DNA from: Sulfuriferula nivalis
GTDB lineage: Bacteria > Pseudomonadota > Gammaproteobacteria > Burkholderiales > Sulfuriferulaceae
DNA: 64,000 nucleotides
Direction of reading: 5' to 3'
Assembly (NCBI RefSeq): GCF_009937995.1
Contig: NZ_AP021881.1
Coordinates: 1,240,001 to 1,304,000 of the forward strand
The position numbers and the translations under genes are program-made. Positions 3,638 to 12,999 of the stretch are shown here, piece after piece (the stretch's first letter is position 1; the number at the start of each line of letters is the position of its first letter). Under the pieces are notes generated by a model. The model saw only the letters and a list, made by a program, of their open reading frames with translations. It was not told the DNA's origin and searched no databases.

Positions 3638-3675
3638 GTAAGCGTCCAGCCCAGCCACTCCAATCCCTTCACTAC

Positions 3676-5304
3676 TTATGGTAGTTCATTTTTAAACGGC
3701 AGCAATTCATCAATCTGGCTATTAGGCCAGACCGGTAATTTTTCCAACGTATCTTTGAGCCATGCATAGGGTTCCAAGCCATTGAGCTTGGCGGTAGCCA
3801 ACAAACTCTGAATCGCTGCAGCGCGTTTGCCTGCACGTTCTGAGCCTGCGAACAGCCAATTCTTTTTGCCGATGGCAATGGGTCGTATCGCATTTTCGAC
3901 TGGGTTGTTATCAATAGGCAAGATGCCGCTGTCCGCATAGCGTATCAGTGCTGGCCAACGCTTGATGCTGTAATCCAACGCGCGGGCTGTGCCGCTGCCA
4001 TCGGCCACTTTGACGCGAGTCTGGATTAACCAGTCATGCAGTTCGCCCAATAACGGTTTTGCCTGAGTCTGGCGCAACTGCAAACGACCTGCCGCATCCA
4101 GCTTGTCCGCAGCCTGCTCAATGGCATAGAGTGCCGCGATACGCTGCAGCGCAGCCGCTGCAATTGGACTTTGGTTGGCCGCATGCAAATCAAAGAACTT
4201 CCGACGTGCATGTGCGAAGCATGCCAGCTCAGTGATGCCTTGGGTAAATAACGCTTTATAACCAGCGTAATCGTCAACCATCAAGTGTCCTTGCCAACCT
4301 GCCAGAAAGTGCCGCGCATGCAATCCCTGTCGCCCTGGCTGATAGTCAAACACCACGATAGGCGGTGCGGATGAAGGGGATGCCAAATCACCCGTGCGGT
4401 AAGCCCACAGATAAGCTTTCTTGGTTTTGCCCGCCCCGGGGTCTAATTGTGGCACTGGCGTTTCATCCGCATGCAATACACTGCGTGCCAGCAGTAATTC
4501 AGTGAGCCTGTCGACCAACGGTTGCAACGCTACCCCCACACGTCCGACCCACTCCGCCAAGGTGGAACGCGCCAGGGTCACCTGGCTGCGCTGGGCAATG
4601 TGTTCTATACGGTAGAGCGGTAAATGATCAACGAATTTACTGATCATCACCCACGCCAGCAAACCTGATGTCGCCACGCCGCCGTCGATGACGGCAGCTG
4701 GAATGGGGGCGGCAGCAACGGTTTCGCAGTGGCGACAAGCATACTGTGGACGGATGTGTTGATGCACGGTGAACTGGGCAGGTTCGACATCCAGTTGTTC
4801 GCTGATGTCTTCACCGATTTTGATTAACGCACCACCACACGCACCGCACTGGCAAGATGCAGGCTCATGGCGATGAATGATGCGGGGCAGATGGTCAGGC
4901 AGTGGCTGACGACCTGCGCGTGGACGCGCAGGCTTGGGGATAGCGGTTGTCGCATCTTCGGTATTAGGTGTATCTGGCTGCCCGATTTGGGCTTCAATGG
5001 CCGTGATGTCGGCTGCCCAGCACTCATCAAACAACGCACGCTGCTCAGGCGAGAGCTGCTCGCTCTTGTTGGCGAAGCGGATGCGGCGGTAATAGGCAAG
5101 TTCCAGTACCAAAGCCTGGTTCTTGAGTTCGGCGTGCTGGATTTGCTTAGTCAGCGTGAGGATTTGTGCGGTGTTTTGCTGGAGTAATACTGTGTTTTGT
5201 TGAATGAGTTCAGCATCCTGTTTAACCTGCGCCAACAGCTTATCCACATACGCCGCCAAGGCGGGATCGGGGATAAATTGGGCAAGTTGTTGGGCTGAAT
5301 CCAT
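3676..5304 (-). CDS. tnpC: IS66 family transposase TnpC
   Basis: TnpC is the DDE transposase of IS66-type elements. The 542-aa protein starts at the ATG at 5304 (MDSAQQLAQFIPDPALAAYV). The frame is open for 77 codons further upstream, but those overlap tnpB and give no transposase-like sequence. In order it shows an N-terminal coiled-coil (residues about 20-70), an IS66 zinc-finger region with CQCGACGG and YACRHCE (about 155-205), and the catalytic domain with Asp in HADETPVPQ, Asp in MVDDYAGYKALF and Glu in NNPVENAIRPI. It ends with the short IS66 C-terminal domain. A 10-bp hairpin and a TATAAT box sit just before the start codon. Apparently intact. Confidence 0.95.
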   Translation of the reverse strand: MDSAQQLAQFIPDPALAAYVDKLLAQVKQDAELIQQNTVLLQQNTAQILTLTKQIQHAELKNQALVLELAYYRRIRFANKSEQLSPEQRALFDECWAADITAIEAQIGQPDTPNTEDATTAIPKPARPRAGRQPLPDHLPRIIHRHEPASCQCGACGGALIKIGEDISEQLDVEPAQFTVHQHIRPQYACRHCETVAAAPIPAAVIDGGVATSGLLAWVMISKFVDHLPLYRIEHIAQRSQVTLARSTLAEWVGRVGVALQPLVDRLTELLLARSVLHADETPVPQLDPGAGKTKKAYLWAYRTGDLASPSSAPPIVVFDYQPGRQGLHARHFLAGWQGHLMVDDYAGYKALFTQGITELACFAHARRKFFDLHAANQSPIAAAALQRIAALYAIEQAADKLDAAGRLQLRQTQAKPLLGELHDWLIQTRVKVADGSGTARALDYSIKRWPALIRYADSGILPIDNNPVENAIRPIAIGKKNWLFAGSERAGKRAAAIQSLLATAKLNGLEPYAWLKDTLEKLPVWPNSQIDELLPFKNELP

Positions 5305-5328
5305 GCTTGAATTATACCATTTCACCCC

Positions 5329-5360
5329 GCCTGAAACCAGCAATAATGCGGGTTTCAGGC
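5329..5360 (-). promoter_or_regulatory. Hairpin and -10 box between tnpB and tnpC
   Basis: Read on the transposase strand, GCCTGAAACC and GGTTTCAGGC form a 10-bp stem with a 12-base loop. It is followed by GGTATAATTCAAGC and then the tnpC ATG. A TATAAT box only six bases before the ATG would place a transcription start at or next to the start codon, giving a leaderless tnpC message. The hairpin could also act as a weak attenuator. The same unit is in the other complete copies at 35450-35481, 39538-39569 and 53511-53542. Confidence 0.5.
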
Positions 5361-5384
5361 ATGTTTTTACTGAATCATGAGTGG

Positions 5385-5744
5385 CTACACCTGCCAGTGG
5401 GCAGGGGCTGGGGCACTGAGTCTTTGCCAGTCGATACCTGTGATCAGCCAGTCCCACTGTGTGGGGGTTAAAGGATGGGTGATGGCAGCGATGTCTGGCC
5501 AGGTGAAGTGACCACGATGCAGTCGGCGTTGGCACAACCAGACCCCTGTGCCATCCCAGACCAGGAGCTTGACCCGCGTTTGGCGACGATTACGGAAGGC
5601 GTAGGCGGCGCCGTCGCAGGGACTGCGACCCAGGCGGTGCTGGATGCGCTGGGAAAGGCCATCTATGCCGATGCGCATGTCCACGGGTTCGATGACTAGC
5701 CAGACCTGGGTGGCGATGGGGCTGATGGGATGGGCAGATATCAT
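5385..5744 (-). CDS. tnpB: IS66 accessory protein TnpB
   Basis: The 119-aa protein has the IS66 Orf2 pattern: VWLVIEPVDMRIGIDGLSQ near the N-terminus, then AYAFRNRRQTRVKLLVWDGTG, then WLCQRRLHRGHFTWP. It is required with TnpA and TnpC for IS66 transposition, though its biochemical role is not well defined. Its ATG overlaps the tnpA stop by four bases (ATGA), which indicates translational coupling. Confidence 0.95.
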   Translation of the reverse strand: MISAHPISPIATQVWLVIEPVDMRIGIDGLSQRIQHRLGRSPCDGAAYAFRNRRQTRVKLLVWDGTGVWLCQRRLHRGHFTWPDIAAITHPLTPTQWDWLITGIDWQRLSAPAPAHWQV

Positions 5745-6046
5745 GGCAGTTGCCGCAACAAGTCAATTAGCCAGGGCGTGCTAGCAATGGGAAGCTCTAC
5801 CCGCCAGCCAGTGGGGCTGTGGAGCTGGAGCGTGCCCGTGACAGGCGCAGGTTGAACACTGACGGGGATGAGGGTTAGCGGTGGCTGGCGCGTGAGATTG
5901 GGCGCTGTTGTCAGCTGGCTGCGCCAGCGATAAAAGGTCTTGGCACATAAGCCGTGCTGGGTGCAATAAGCTGTGACGGTCAGTTTGGTTTGTTGCCAAG
6001 CGGTAAGGTGCGTTTGCCAAAAATCAGGCGTGTGTCGAGTAGCCAT
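5741..6046 (-). CDS. tnpA: IS66 accessory protein TnpA (helix-turn-helix)
   Basis: The 101-aa protein begins MATRHTPDFWQTHLTAWQQ and has the usual IS66 TnpA helix-turn-helix region LTVTAYCTQHGLCAKTFYRW (residues about 22-41). It is the first gene of the element, 79 bases inside the right end. Confidence 0.95.
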   Translation of the reverse strand: MATRHTPDFWQTHLTAWQQTKLTVTAYCTQHGLCAKTFYRWRSQLTTAPNLTRQPPLTLIPVSVQPAPVTGTLQLHSPTGWRVELPIASTPWLIDLLRQLP

Positions 6047-6490: not shown

Positions 6491-6649
6491 TAAACAAGAG
6501 ATCGTTGTATCAGTATGAATAGAAGATTGCTTATGGCATATCTGCGCAGTTCAGCATGCAAGCTTAAACCTACCCTAAGAAGTTATTGCGCACTTGGATG
6601 AATTCATAGTTAGGCATCAATATAATCGGCATGCACTATAAGTCAGTGC

Positions 6650-6680
6650 AAAAGAAAGCCCGACACAAAAAGTGTCGGGC
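6650..6680 (-). terminator. Rho-independent terminator, minus strand
   Basis: GCCCGACAC and GTGTCGGGC form a perfect 9-bp stem with a five-base loop at 6658-6680. On the minus strand the stem is followed by TTTCTTTTGC. On the plus strand no T-run follows. There is no minus-strand protein gene directly upstream, so it most simply ends a transcript covering the hairpin-rich region 6690-7800. Confidence 0.8.
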
Positions 6681-6689
6681 CGAATGATA

Positions 6690-7800
6690 AATATGATTCC
6701 TCCTTAAAATCACTTTTAATGGCATTAATCTAAGCGTCGCCAAACACCTAAATTCATACCACCGACCTGCACCGCAGGCCGTAATCAATAATGAAGCGTG
6801 CAATACTCACGCTTCCCGGACGAACCTACCCCGCCAAGGGTGAGTTCGTTCTGCAAACTACCGCCAAGTAGTTTGCGATTTTCGCTTGCTGTCCGGCTAC
6901 CAACCGGACTCGTCTACTTCTCGTCGTGTCGTTTCCCCAACTCGGTTTGGCTTTCGACCAAACGTCAACATCGAAGAAACACGCTCATACGCGTCACAGA
7001 TTTTTCGGATTCGTTACATCCGCCGCCCCAGGTGCCACCCTGGTGCGCTGTTCGGCGCATTTCGCACCACTTAGACCAACTTCTTACGTTCATGCAGGAA
7101 CGCCGCTGGCTCACGCCATGGCAACGGTAAGGGGCTGGATACCCTGTTTCAGACGGGAGAACCGGGAGAAGACCCTGTCTTACTTCTAAAACCGTTGTAC
7201 TCCATGACGCTTCCACCAAATTGCAGGCACTATAGGCCCTATACGGCTTCTGCACTTTCCAGACGGCACCCTGTTTAAGGGCGCTGTTACAGGTTTAAGC
7301 TCTCAGCGCGGCTTGCAGCTTCCCAGGCGCAACCCTGGTTCACCACACGCTCGCCCGAACAGTCCAACGCACTCGCGTTGTCCATCCGATGTGCACATCA
7401 CTGTGCACGATTACGCAGCCATCCTGTCTGGCACACGTTATGCGGTTTTCCCGCATCGCCGTGGTTGAGACTCACACTCAATTTCCAGATGATCAGGTAC
7501 ACTGGGGCATTTGCTCCCCGGGCCCGTTTCGTGTTCGCACCAGTCCCACCTTCTCAGGTGATTGGCATGGGATAAAGCAGCGGGATTACGCTGTCTGTAG
7601 TAAACAGACAGGATTACTCCGCTACCTCCCCCTCGCACCGTGCAAGCTCCATTACGAGCACACGGCGCCACACGACTTGCCCTTGGCAAGGCTACCGACA
7701 CAGTCGGTATAGACGAAACAGCTTGGGCGTTGGCGCGCCCTTGCTGCTAATAAGCAGGTGTTGGCGCACCGGAACGCATCCGCAATTTCTATCGAAGAAT
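6690..7800 (-). ncRNA. Candidate large structured non-coding RNA (about 1.1 kb)
   Basis: This GC-rich block has no convincing protein frame but is packed with short perfect hairpins. On the minus strand these include GAAGCGTG/CACGCTTC (6793-6815), GCAAACTAC/GTAGTTTGC (6853-6876), GTCCGG/CCGGAC (about 6891-6909), CAACGC/GCGTTG (about 7367-7382), ATGCGG/CCGCAT (about 7440-7456), CACCT-GAGA-AGGTG (7547-7560), TGTCTGT/ACAGACA inside AGCGG/CCGCT (about 7575-7625), CTTGCC/GGCAAG and ACCGAC/GTCGGT (about 7677-7710). At least three stems close on GNRA tetraloops only when read on the minus strand: GAGA at 7547-7560, GTGA at 7107-7118 and GAAA at 6946-6962. The minus-strand terminator at 6650-6680 fits as the 3' end. 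I find no group II intron domain V or rRNA/tmRNA/RNase P motif. Its size and hairpin density resemble the large ornate RNAs of mobile elements (GOLLD, ROOL), but I cannot assign it to any class. The 5' end is uncertain. Confidence 0.6.
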
Positions 7801-7978
7801 TTTGTCCTTACTCTGTATAGTCACTGACGCGCAGTTTTCATCTTTTTATTTTCCCAGTTCAGTATTGAATTCATCAGCATTCTCATTGAATAGCAGTCAT
7901 GCAGGTATGAGAGATGTTTTTGTCTAATCCAATGAACAGTAGCTATACAAGGTTCCATCACTATAAAAGGAGCCTGTC

Positions 7979-8668
7979 ATGGCAAACCTATCGATCAAAG
8001 CACCACGTAACATGACCGCGCTGATGCAGCATATGCAGCGACTCGTCACAACTGGACACCATTACTGGACAGGGGGTCGTATCGCCATGCGCCACATCCT
8101 CAAGCTCATTGATAAATACCCTGACTTTGCCTTACAGGCGGATGCGCCAGCACGGGCATACCGCAAACGTACTGGGCGCGCCTCAGTACATCTTGTACTT
8201 CATCCTGTGGTAAGTACGAATGATATGGATATCCCGTGGTGGATGTTGTCAACCGGCGGGAAGCTGGGGCTCACTAGTGACATTAATTTGCCCGGAAAGG
8301 TACATGATGCACGCACCCTGGAAGGGCGTCTGTGGAGCGATGATTACGAACTGATGCAGTTGGAGAAGAACTATATTGCTGGCAAACCAAAAACCATGAC
8401 CTGGACCTGGCGCATGACGCCGGCACGTTTCCGGGAATGGCAGGCATTACTCATTGAACGAGTAAAGGCACGTGACATTAAGTCAGTCATGGCTGTCTTT
8501 GATCTGCTACGAGAAATGCCGCAATTTGCCGGGGTGCGGTCACAGGTGTTGCGCCTGCATTTCGATGCAAGTCGTATGCTGGTGAAATTGGGTATGCCGG
8601 GACTGGTGCCGTTGGATTTACCCGTCATGCGTATGCAGAAGTTGTGGCATGAGGATTTTGAAGTGTGA
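7979..8668 (+). CDS. Hypothetical basic protein of a serine-recombinase element (229 aa)
   Basis: The gene starts at an ATG at 7979 with AAGGAG nine bases upstream. The 229-aa product is soluble, rich in Arg, Lys, His and Trp and has no signal peptide. Visible landmarks are MQHMQRLVTTGHHYWTGGRI near residue 17, the strand-like VHLVLHPVV near residue 70, and DIPWWMLSTGGKLGL near residue 83. I do not recognise the family. A terminator follows at 8686-8726, and the next two genes on the same strand are a 72-aa protein and a serine recombinase. The context suggests a cargo or accessory gene of an integrative element. Its charge would suit nucleic-acid binding, but this is inference. The candidate structured RNA lies divergently on its other side. 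Confidence 0.75.
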   Translation: MANLSIKAPRNMTALMQHMQRLVTTGHHYWTGGRIAMRHILKLIDKYPDFALQADAPARAYRKRTGRASVHLVLHPVVSTNDMDIPWWMLSTGGKLGLTSDINLPGKVHDARTLEGRLWSDDYELMQLEKNYIAGKPKTMTWTWRMTPARFREWQALLIERVKARDIKSVMAVFDLLREMPQFAGVRSQVLRLHFDASRMLVKLGMPGLVPLDLPVMRMQKLWHEDFEV

Positions 8669-9040: not shown

Positions 9041-10663
9041 ATGTCTGTTGCTTTATACGCTCGTGTTTCAACGGTTCGTCAGGCGCAGGCCGATCTGTCA
9101 ATTCCCGATCAACTAAACCGCATGCGGGAATGGTGCAAACAGAATGGTTTAGTTGTTGCAAAAGAATATGTGGAACCTGGTGCATCAGCCACCGATGATA
9201 AGAGGCCCGTGTTTCAGCAGATGATAGATGAGGCAACAAAGAAACCGCACCCTTTTGAAGCAATTATTGTCCATTCACGCTCACGTTTCTTCCGTGACCT
9301 GTATGGTTCGCTGCATTATGGGCGCAAACTCAGCCAGGTAGGAACCAGACTCATTTCTATCACCCAACCTACACCAGACGACGCAAGTGGCGAGATGATG
9401 GTGAACATGATTTCCATGATGGATGACTACAGCTCTAAGGAGAATGCAAAGCACACGAGTCGTGCGATGATGGAAAATGCCAGTAGAGGCTTCTTTAATG
9501 GATCTCGTGCCCCATTTGGTTACCAAGTGGTGGATACTGACGTGCCAGGACATAAGGGTAAGGTCAGGAAAAAGCTTGCTATTGATGACAAGGAAGCATT
9601 CATCGTGCGCAAGATCTACGGCTGGTATTTGAATGGCCTGAATGGACACTTGCTTGGCATAAAAAAGATTGCACAGGAATTAAATGAGCAGGGCCTGCTA
9701 ATGCGCGGAGGCTTATGGCGGTCACAGAAAATCCATGATGTTCTCTCAGACCCGACCTATCGGGGTGAATATAGCTACAACATGCGGGATTCCAAGAAAT
9801 GCATTATGCGCCCCGAAAGCGAATGGATCCGCTGCCAGGTAGAACCTATTGTTGAAGAGAAGGTTTTTGATGATGTTAGGCGTAAACGCGAGGCGCAAGA
9901 TCCAAAAAAGGTTGCGCTGGGTAAGGCAGTTCCCCATGCATTGACTTCGCCAATACTGCTTACAGGATTGCTAAAGTGCAGCCAATGTAATGCTGGGATG
10001 ACGCTGGCGACTGGAAAAAGCGGGCGCTACAAATATTACAAGTGCTGTAAAAAAATGAGTATTTCACCCCATGTCTGCGATACACCCAACTTGCCGATGG
10101 ATCGGATGGATAAACTCATACTGGAACGCCTGATAGAAAAGGTGCTAGCACCGGATCGTGTGACTTTGATGATCAAGGATTGGCTTAAGCATCAGGAAAA
10201 AATGCAAGGTAGTGATGATAAGACGGTTCAGGAATTGACTAGGTCTTTGAAGGTGACAGAAGATGGTTTGAATAATCTATATAGTGCAATCGAAAAGGGC
10301 ATCATTGCACTGGATTCCAGTCTGCAAAGTAGGGTAAACCAATTAAAAGATACCCGGGAAAAGATAGTAACAGAAATGGCTTTATTGAAGCGAGACAAAC
10401 CATCATTTCGAAAAATATCGCCCAAACAGGTGGCTTATGCGACGCAACGGATGAAGGAAATCTTGTTGGATACTGAGTCTGGGTACGGTAAACAGTTGTT
10501 GAATCTTCTTGTAGAAGACATAAGAGTCGATGGTAAACAGGCAACTGTACGGGGTAACTATGCGGCACTTGATCTTGCCGTTGATGGAATGAAAATGGGC
10601 ACTCCGATTGGAGTGCCCAGATTCGTCAATGATTGGTGCGCCCGAAGAGATTCGAACTCCTGA
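9041..10663 (+). CDS. Large serine recombinase (site-specific integrase), 540 aa
   Basis: Large serine recombinases cut and rejoin DNA at attachment sites through a Ser-DNA intermediate. The N-terminal resolvase domain (residues 1-150) shows VALYARVSTVRQAQADLS with the nucleophilic Ser in ARVS, and then IVHSRSRFFRD. The recombinase domain follows, with RAPFGYQVVD near residue 160 and HDVLSDPTYRGEYSYN near 230. A zinc ribbon with LLKCSQCNAGM and KYYKCC...HVCD lies near 310-350. A coiled-coil and a C-terminal segment complete it. The ATG at 9041 has GAGGAG upstream. The last codons (DWCARRDSNS) are read from the complement of the tRNA-Arg 3' end, and a tRNA terminator hairpin also lies inside the frame. 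That suggests the integrated state replaced the original C-terminus and that the attachment site lies in or near the tRNA. Apparently intact. Confidence 0.9.
   Translation: MSVALYARVSTVRQAQADLSIPDQLNRMREWCKQNGLVVAKEYVEPGASATDDKRPVFQQMIDEATKKPHPFEAIIVHSRSRFFRDLYGSLHYGRKLSQVGTRLISITQPTPDDASGEMMVNMISMMDDYSSKENAKHTSRAMMENASRGFFNGSRAPFGYQVVDTDVPGHKGKVRKKLAIDDKEAFIVRKIYGWYLNGLNGHLLGIKKIAQELNEQGLLMRGGLWRSQKIHDVLSDPTYRGEYSYNMRDSKKCIMRPESEWIRCQVEPIVEEKVFDDVRRKREAQDPKKVALGKAVPHALTSPILLTGLLKCSQCNAGMTLATGKSGRYKYYKCCKKMSISPHVCDTPNLPMDRMDKLILERLIEKVLAPDRVTLMIKDWLKHQEKMQGSDDKTVQELTRSLKVTEDGLNNLYSAIEKGIIALDSSLQSRVNQLKDTREKIVTEMALLKRDKPSFRKISPKQVAYATQRMKEILLDTESGYGKQLLNLLVEDIRVDGKQATVRGNYAALDLAVDGMKMGTPIGVPRFVNDWCARRDSNS
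10597..10618 (-). terminator. Terminator of tRNA-Arg (inside the recombinase frame)
   Basis: GGGCACTCC and GGAGTGCCC form a perfect 9-bp stem with a four-base loop. On the minus strand it is followed by ATTTTCATTCC. It lies 16 bases beyond the encoded CCA end of the tRNA. On the plus strand no T-run follows. Confidence 0.75.
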
Positions 10664-10710
10664 CCACTCGGTTCGTAGCCGAGTACTCTATCCAGCTGAG
10701 CTACGGGCGC
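10634..10710 (-). tRNA. tRNA-Arg (anticodon ACG)
   Basis: Read on the minus strand, the gene has a 7-bp acceptor stem (GCGCCCG/CGGGCGC), D-arm, anticodon stem CTCGG/CCGAG around the loop CTACGAA, the T-loop TTCGAAT, discriminator A and an encoded CCA. The anticodon ACG (inosine-modified in bacteria) reads CGU, CGC and CGA. The 3' half overlaps the final codons of the convergent serine recombinase gene, which marks this tRNA as the likely integration site. Confidence 0.97.
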
Positions 10711-11805: not shown

Positions 11806-12999
11806 TCAACCGTCATCAGATTTTAATTGGCAAATTATCCAGCCTATTAAAAAGGTTGGAATAATCGCATAAACAACCATTTCAAGTATTGATGCTAGAG
11901 CAACTGCAAAACCCATATAAAATCGATTTACCGTTTCAAATGCAAACATCCCATTACCAGAGAATGGCCCAAAATAGGGCATTCCAATTGGCAGCAGACT
12001 AGCATCAGATAAGATGACCCACGAAATGAAGAGAAGTACGATTACATTAAAGCGCATTCTAGACATTGCTTTAGGTTTTGGACGGTTATGCAAGATTGCT
12101 TGAATTTCTCTTTCCTTATTACCTGCGTCACGACTATTGGCGTAAAGCTGCAGGCAAAAAGATTTCTTTGCTCTCCACAAAGGAATAAGAATATAAGGCC
12201 ATAAAGCCGGTATTACTATAAACAGGAAAGACCACATCAACGCATTCACCGTCGCTGCCAGCTGCCCATAATGATTGTTCATGGCATTATATTTAGCCAC
12301 TGCTGGCACGATACCTGACATCCAGTCCACATAAGCGCGCAACATTGCCAAAGACTCCAAGACATGCAATGGCATAAGCCAGGATAGCAACAATGGGAAC
12401 ACCACCGTGAATAACGTGGCATAGGTCATATAGCGCTTAGCCTGTTTACTAGCTTGGAAAATACCAAAGCTTTCTGTTCTATGTGCAATGGCTTTTAGTT
12501 CCTGCTGCGCTACAACCAATTGCTCTTGTCTAGTAGGTGTATTTTGTGTGACATCCATGGCGTTGTTACTGCTTTGAAGACGCGTAGACACACGTGCAAT
12601 TACATTTACTGAAATGGTGCCATACGCCACACCAATAAACGCCGCAATCATGACAACACCGGGTTGATAAGGACCCAGTATAAAAACAAACAAAATAAAC
12701 AAGGTAAACACAGCTGCATGCCAATTTATCCAACGGCTATAAGTAAAGCTTCGCATATCCAATTGCTGGAATGTCCACCACAACCCAAGTAGACCCGCTA
12801 TGCTGAAGCTGGATAAGATCAACAGCCAATGTGGATAATGAATTATCCCGTTTGGTAACGTGATTTGTGTCATCTCACCATTATTTGGCCGGATGAAACC
12901 GAATCCAGCGATCAATAAAATGACTGTTTGCGCCCATGTCAGCTGCTGGAGCTTTTGTAATTGACGAGAAATTGCATTGGTTGTTTCGGTTAATTGCAT
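11806..12999 (-). CDS. Hypothetical 8-TM membrane protein, copy 2
   Basis: This 397-aa protein differs from the copy at 1189-2382 at a single visible residue (His instead of Tyr near position 52). DNA identity is essentially complete from the stop codon to about codon 70. Scattered substitutions appear in the first codons, and the sequence upstream of the ATG is unrelated. Here the gene follows an intact TonB-like protein gene with 52 bases between them on the same strand, which looks like the ancestral arrangement. At copy 1 only fragments of the TonB-like gene remain. The role is unknown. Pairing with a TonB-like protein hints at an envelope function. Confidence 0.75.
   Translation of the reverse strand: MQLTETTNAISRQLQKLQQLTWAQTVILLIAGFGFIRPNNGEMTQITLPNGIIHYPHWLLILSSFSIAGLLGLWWTFQQLDMRSFTYSRWINWHAAVFTLFILFVFILGPYQPGVVMIAAFIGVAYGTISVNVIARVSTRLQSSNNAMDVTQNTPTRQEQLVVAQQELKAIAHRTESFGIFQASKQAKRYMTYATLFTVVFPLLLSWLMPLHVLESLAMLRAYVDWMSGIVPAVAKYNAMNNHYGQLAATVNALMWSFLFIVIPALWPYILIPLWRAKKSFCLQLYANSRDAGNKEREIQAILHNRPKPKAMSRMRFNVIVLLFISWVILSDASLLPIGMPYFGPFSGNGMFAFETVNRFYMGFAVALASILEMVVYAIIPTFLIGWIICQLKSDDG

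Follow-up and report, generated by a model that had tools for sequence, protein, structure and literature searches.

The 64-kb window of Sulfuriferula nivalis DNA analyzed here (contig NZ_AP021881.1; positions count from the first of its 64,000 nucleotides, nt) holds two divergent elements: a large structured RNA on the minus strand, running from about 7770 to a terminator near 6657, and acpG on the plus strand (7979-8668). Profile searches and codon constraint identify the latter as encoding AcpG, a 229-aa protein of the TTHC007 family. We are highly confident that the hairpin-rich stretch is a circularly permuted (CP) group II ribozyme forming a two-gene cassette with acpG. A preliminary description had proposed a new class of RNA, or one resembling GOLLD/ROOL, with no protein gene that it could serve; it had overlooked acpG. 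The RNA is a member of the published CP group II class, also known as 'T-large' RNA (Roth et al. 2021 iScience, PMC8637638; statements about this source refer to the portion of its text available to us), and not of a new class.

Structure and extent of the RNA

On the minus strand, the parts of the RNA follow one another in the order 5' hairpins, P2-like hairpin, domain 5 (D5), domain 6 (D6), linker, domains 1-4 (D1-D4), and terminator. Fold energy agrees with the earlier claim of a highly structured minus-strand RNA: the minimum free energy (MFE) of the 1000 nt at 6655-7654 is -413.6 kcal/mol on the minus strand (z -8.3), well below shuffles, and -336.8 kcal/mol on the plus strand (z -4.6), with only 20 shuffles behind each z value. 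Hairpin number alone fails to tell the strands apart, because the MFE structure of 6656-7800 contains nearly as many loops for the minus strand (28) as for the plus strand (29). GNRA tetraloops, namely GAGA and GTGA, are indeed found on the minus strand only; the GAAA that had been listed with them is not a tetraloop in the MFE structure.

The proposed terminator also holds, with 10 pairs (G-T included) at 6681-6657 and a T-rich tail. A terminator scan gave four terminator-like sites versus 1.7 in shuffles, and we place the 3' end of the RNA at this intrinsic terminator (6657-6681, minus strand); homology to the corresponding RNA of another genome of the genus, G002, stops just beyond it, at 6650. 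Upstream, the extent of the RNA is corrected to about 7770. The description of the region as protein-poor is borne out by comparison with the 91%-identical G002 sequence, which reveals no coding signal: substitutions at codon positions 1/2/3 number 15/9/8, 6/5/3, 8/10/1, 5/1/7, and 4/7/6 in five open reading frames (ORFs), of which only the fourth tilts, weakly, toward position 3, while neighboring acpG has 28/19/92.

In the consensus fold of the window and G002 RNAs, substitutions affect 38 of 750 paired and 53 of 392 unpaired columns. Twenty-two pairs show a one-sided and 8 a two-sided change, and no pair is broken (14, 7, and 0 on the plus strand); alone, these pair changes are weak evidence, because the fold derives from these two RNAs themselves and the plus strand behaves similarly. 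Taken as a whole, the picture of a large, structured, non-coding minus-strand RNA that ends in a terminator and lies near a recombinase gene and a tRNA gene is supported.

Group II domains in permuted order

Group II introns had been set aside because no D5 was seen. D5 is present, at an unexpected end of the molecule: in a relaxed-threshold Rfam search of 6500-8000, the group II model RF00029 covers 7670-7567 on the minus strand with 35.6 bits (E 6e-5), below its gathering score of 40. At the models' own thresholds, the Rfam search that had been suggested returned a tRNA as the sole match in the whole window. We gave the missing match no weight, because RF00029 and the other Rfam models fail to recognize the published pTT8 RNA even at E 1.

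Independent evidence comes from R1, a covariance model of 114 positions and 22 pairs built from 14 sequences, from which the window, G002, and pTT8 were left out. R1 was searched against 9 sources totaling 180,849 bases, with a short calibration that makes its E-values rough. Its match in the window, at 7667-7523 on the minus strand, reaches 44.8 bits (E 5.9e-10) and that in G002 reaches 44.4 bits, while the published pTT8 RNA scores 33.5 bits (E 5.4e-7); the next best match within the window has E 1.2. Across the 14 sequences, 97.7% of 307 D5-D6 cells are paired, versus 35%-46% in slid controls, and 13 of the 22 pairs changed on both sides, which 2 of 500 shuffles reach; none of 500 shuffles reaches the covariation score of 0.585. 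For D5 alone, counted in 13 sequences including the window (4 of 17 were omitted for their longer loops), 99.3% of 144 cells are paired, and two-sided changes occur in 8 of 12 pairs.

In the window, D5 (7636-7667, minus strand, as are all RNA features below) has the triad CGC, helices of 8 and 4 bp, a GUAAUG loop, and a UU bulge, and is delimited by RF00029, the 13-sequence count, and R1. D6 (7569-7632) is enlarged and has a bulged branch-point A; it rests on the R1 match, D6 covariation in relatives, and a check of the letters. The predicted branch-point adenosine, from its position relative to homologues, is 7573. D5 helices with a two-nt bulge and a D6 with a bulged branch A are features of the CP group II class. 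Both domains occupy the 5' portion of the structured RNA, which continues for some 850 nt downstream, and lie 5' of D1, as in published CP group II ribozymes; this altered order, together with the likeness to group II, gave the class its name (PMC8637638).

The predicted 3' splice site lies after 7567 (..CCCAU), as set by position relative to relatives, and the 5' splice-site motif GUGCG occupies 7536-7540, as judged by comparison of 19 sequences. Between them, alignment with 16 other sequences, including two published loci, places a linker (7541-7566) containing the hairpin CACCUGAGAAGGUG, a predicted circle of 26 nt; circles in published CP group II ribozymes span 15-86 nt (PMC8637638). By this alignment, the splice sites would be reversed, internal, and a short linker apart, as in the class. 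The D1-D4-like part (6690-7540), with domains partly delimited, is supported by profile homology to CP group II loci in its 5' portion and by its fold. It includes the candidate exon-binding site (EBS) CGGUUCU (7158-7164), in a context that resembles relatives' EBS and pairing over seven positions, several of them G-U, with the intron-binding site (IBS) GGGACUG; eight positions can pair at a second candidate, which lies 30 nt upstream of the first. Among relatives, where AAUCUC preceded by CUUUGG is the usual EBS, the pairing is clear in several, with joint changes of EBS and IBS in L033 and L031; in others, such as L037, L018, and L024, the scan detected no EBS where it was expected.

Loops near the two ends of the RNA are complementary. 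A hairpin scan placed K1 (GGUG-CGCCAA-CACC, 7757-7770) and K2 (GGGCG-CGCCAA-CGCCC, 7725-7740) at the 5' side, both with the loop CGCCAA and both identical in G002; a P2-like hairpin with the loop GCCA (7679-7692) is located by the scan and by homologue alignment. Toward the 3' end, the scan found two hairpins with UUGGCG tips complementary to CGCCAA (6853-6876 and 6828-6841), a third with a UUUGGCG tip that also occurs in G002 (6727-6754), and a D2-like hairpin with the loop GUGGCA (7028-7043), a candidate partner of the P2 loop. Of 16 RNAs, the window and G002 included, 12 have both a GCCA loop at most 110 nt upstream of D5 and a UGGC loop 450-950 nt downstream, counting hairpins of at least 5 pairs. 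In 200 dinucleotide-shuffled sets, the count for GCCA averages 0.28 and peaks at 3; even the highest-scoring 4-mer of any kind stays at 5 or below. Several RNAs, including that of the window, carry two or three hairpins of one kind and at least two of the other. P2-D2 and P1-3' pseudoknots have been proposed for the class (PMC8637638), and the P2-D2 feature is represented in the window by the complementarity of GCCA and UGGC loops only; we found no description of repeated GCCA/UGGC hairpins in the available text of PMC8637638.

A profile seeded with the window and G002 connects these parts to RNAs of other organisms. Its first round recovered L029, L024, and L037 at E <1e-4, and after five rounds 16 of 22 records matched at E ≤0.01, the published pPNAP05 RNA strongly so (inclusion 0.01; the iteration had no shuffled control, and R1 is the independent test). 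This specific homology to CP group II RNAs, two published loci among them, bears on two other explanations of the locus. The GOLLD, ROOL, OLE, and HEARO RNAs are likewise large and structured, and GOLLD and ROOL are often found on mobile elements; size, structure, and nearness to a recombinase and a tRNA would suit a new class of large ornate RNA. The window has group II domains instead, and no large ornate RNA family matched at gathering score in the window or at E 10 in 6500-8000; we attach next to no probability to this idea.

The second explanation is a decayed canonical group II intron, whose D5-D6 end came by chance to lie upstream of an unrelated structured RNA. The window RNA does share with canonical introns (RF00029) a bulged D5 helix, a D6 branch A, and GUGCG and AY splice-site motifs, and the RF00029 match is confined to D5-D6 and stays below the gathering score. 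In the window, however, D5-D6 stands at the 5' end, outside any gene, and other genera keep the order D5-D6-linker-D1 over about 350-610 aligned nt. Decay also fits poorly with 91% identity to G002 over the RNA and with the distribution of substitutions between paired and unpaired columns. RF00029 matches nowhere else in the genome, although it also misses a second CP copy there, and no RVT_1 reverse transcriptase was detected in the genome at E 1e-3, in a search whose control matched in 3 of 14 genomes. Retromobility, also if helped in trans, is therefore unlikely in this host, and we consider a decayed intron very improbable.

The CGC lineage and the proposed reaction

Within the CP group II class, the window RNA belongs to a variant group. 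The D5 triad is AGC in 15 of 19 sequences and CGC in the window, G002, L037, and L063; in all four of these, D6 is enlarged and contains two UAAU motifs. The 5' splice site reads GUGCG in the window and G002, GGGUG in L063, and GGGCG in the other 16 sequences. The window GUGCG fits the canonical intron motif GUGYG. With the published class (PMC8637638), the window shares the D5-D6-D1-D4 order, the bulged A in D6, a short stem-loop linker between reversed splice sites, P2-D2-type loop pairing, the lack of a convincing internal ORF, and an adjoining divergent acpG. It differs in having CGC rather than AGC, GUGCG rather than GGGCG, an enlarged D6, extra GCCA/UGGC hairpins, and a location close to a serine recombinase and tRNA-Arg. 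The published set (PMC8637638) comprises about 290 sequences, and the window locus or the CGC lineage may already be within it.

Some observations weigh against the assignment to CP group II ribozymes. The triad is not the AGC given for the class (PMC8637638), GUGCG stands in place of GGGCG, and D6 is enlarged. The EBS/IBS pairing is rich in G-U and has two candidate sites, and the profile seeded with the window and G002 reaches the published pTT8 RNA only at E 0.045. No promoter-like sites were found above chance, and none upstream of the RNA on its strand. In Polaromonas, transcripts were detected and processed RNA was not (PMC8637638). AGC and GGGCG are conserved in the class and do not define it.

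The triad and 5' splice-site changes would also suit a descendant of a CP group II ribozyme that no longer back-splices and whose sole remaining role is that of a structured RNA partner for AcpG. Some canonical group II introns (Oceanobacillus iheyensis) do, however, support catalysis with a CGC triad, and CGC recurs in four genomes together with the enlarged D6. Moreover, the window and G002 retain D5 pairing, the branch A, and the two splice-site motifs. We regard such a loss as unlikely.

For an active ribozyme, the published members offer a guide: five of them form branched intermediates and release a small RNA circle in vitro (PMC8637638). In the window RNA, the 5' GCCA loops may contact the UGGC loops near the 3' end and hold the two ends together, which would let D5-D6 dock on D1-D4. 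Back-splicing would then begin with attack of the branch-point A at 7573 on the 5' splice site (before 7540); the linker end set free in this step would in turn attack the 3' splice site (after 7567). By homology, the predicted products are a 26-nt circle (7566-7541) and a branched RNA in which D5-D6 is joined to D1-D4.

AcpG, distribution, and mobile-element context

The protein encoded opposite the RNA belongs to a family already linked to these ribozymes: TTHC007 is the protein named AcpG and associated with the CP group II class (PMC8637638). With database size set to 1000, an AcpG profile built without the window and L005, the G002 locus, finds the window ORF at E 3.7e-43, and TTHC007 of pTT8 is recovered at E 1.2e-16 by a profile from which it was left out. 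The window protein has no Pfam, NCBIfam, or PADLOC match at E 1; 17 family members gave two weak single-member Pfam matches only (best E 0.007); and the best E-values for AcpG were 0.27 against PHROG and 0.15 against the Protein Data Bank. A single-sequence AlphaFold model was poor (mean predicted local distance difference test score, 40.3) and was not used for fold searches. Among open-licence PubMed Central papers, we found no later literature on AcpG and, beyond PMC8637638, only papers that mention CP group II introns.

The RNA and acpG are divergent in all 20 loci where both were seen (window, L005, L018, L020, L021, L024, L025, L029-L037, L063-L065, and pPNAP05), a count that is biased because most loci were located through AcpG. 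Another annotated gene lies between the two in L020, and in L025 about 1.3 kb separates them, across the record start. Three loci (G383, G280, and G380) were found by the RNA model and missed by an AcpG search of the same sample, and all have an adjoining acpG. Strict linkage is contradicted by L022 and L023, which encode AcpG relatives but lack an R1 match within 4 kb, and by CP RNAs without acpG (PMC8637638). AcpG and RNA distances correlate (Mantel r 0.81 in 18 loci and 0.64 in 16 non-redundant ones; 0 of 5000 permutations reach these values), and the two trees are not identical. Judged from sequence distances, this correlation shows co-inheritance of AcpG and the RNA, not contact. AcpG is most likely the RNA's protein partner, a folding or ribonucleoprotein factor.

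Within the genus, a DNA search of 18 genomes detected the RNA in one other, G002, at 91% identity; a longer motif, allowing at most 2 mismatches, likewise occurs in the window's genome and G002 only. The homologous block, 6650-8668, extends from the terminator to the acpG stop codon at 87% identity and is the sole match between the 64-kb window and 19.5 kb of G002. Short matches in G016 and G012 were rejected as chance, each being an island of only 25-26 bp in unrelated sequence. The RNA and AcpG are carried by the same four of the 18 genomes, and the window's own genome has the pair twice, the second time on a contig of 45 kb that also carries a ParA-like gene. No match to a 22-base pattern turned up in a collection of genome contigs.

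Beyond the genus, searches for DNA similarity to the RNA in phages and plasmids gave no match, the AcpG search of phages gave none, and viral contigs searched with AcpG relatives or RNA motifs yielded none. Six of 20 plasmid records with AcpG relatives were examined, L022 and L023 among them. The small Azotobacter chroococcum plasmid of L020 bears, in addition to the CP RNA and acpG, a PrrB/RsmZ-type small RNA (3668-3811, 65.6 bits). A class-level sample of 369 genomes contained nine weak R1 places (<40 bits). Five of these (L066-L070) had no AcpG and no match to the RNA profile; they may be canonical introns or chance matches. L006, a contig of a metagenome-assembled genome labeled Ktedonobacterales, has an acpG fragment 57% identical to that of the window; its other ORFs look proteobacterial to us, and the contig is possibly misbinned.

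In the window, the acpG/RNA pair is followed by a 76-aa ORF and then by a large serine recombinase gene (9041-10663, plus strand; Pfam Resolvase, Recombinase, and Zn_ribbon_recom; PHROG 95 integrase) whose 3' end overlaps tRNA-Arg(ACG) (10634-10710, minus strand; ARAGORN and Rfam). A second, left copy of the tRNA-Arg end was not found in the genome. The neighbors of the G002 pair include a DUF6538 protein, whose match to phage integrase is sub-threshold, and an adjoining tRNA-Ser; those of the G280 pair include a DUF6538 phage integrase and tRNA-Ser. The G013 pair adjoins cas3 and has a phage integrase at a distance of about 2.3 kb, with no tRNA in the 9 kb scanned; at this locus (L029, 4948-8022), cas3 is the next large ORF downstream of acpG. 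Of the copies whose neighbors were inspected, four are near a recombinase or integrase, and three of these are near a tRNA gene; the few ORFs searched in L031 and L033 included no integrase. Elsewhere in the window, near-identical 397-aa ORFs (1189-2382 and 11806-12999, minus strand) flank the RNA/recombinase region, which suggests duplication, and left of the RNA lie three ORFs (3676-6046, minus strand) that we take to resemble an IS66-type transposase set.

The RNA/acpG pair probably travels as cargo on plasmids and integrative elements and is of use to them. We tentatively speculate, with more doubt than conviction, that AcpG and the ribozyme form an obligate ribonucleoprotein cassette on plasmids and tRNA-linked elements; that the CGC triad, enlarged D6, and multi-site lock mark a distinct lineage; and that the circle or the branched RNA would act in maintenance or control of the element. 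Large natural ribozymes are few, and the CP group II class is one of them. To this class the locus adds a divergent lineage and facts that bear on its biological role, namely the correlation of RNA and AcpG distances, the recombinase and tRNA neighborhoods, and a host genome in which no reverse transcriptase was found.
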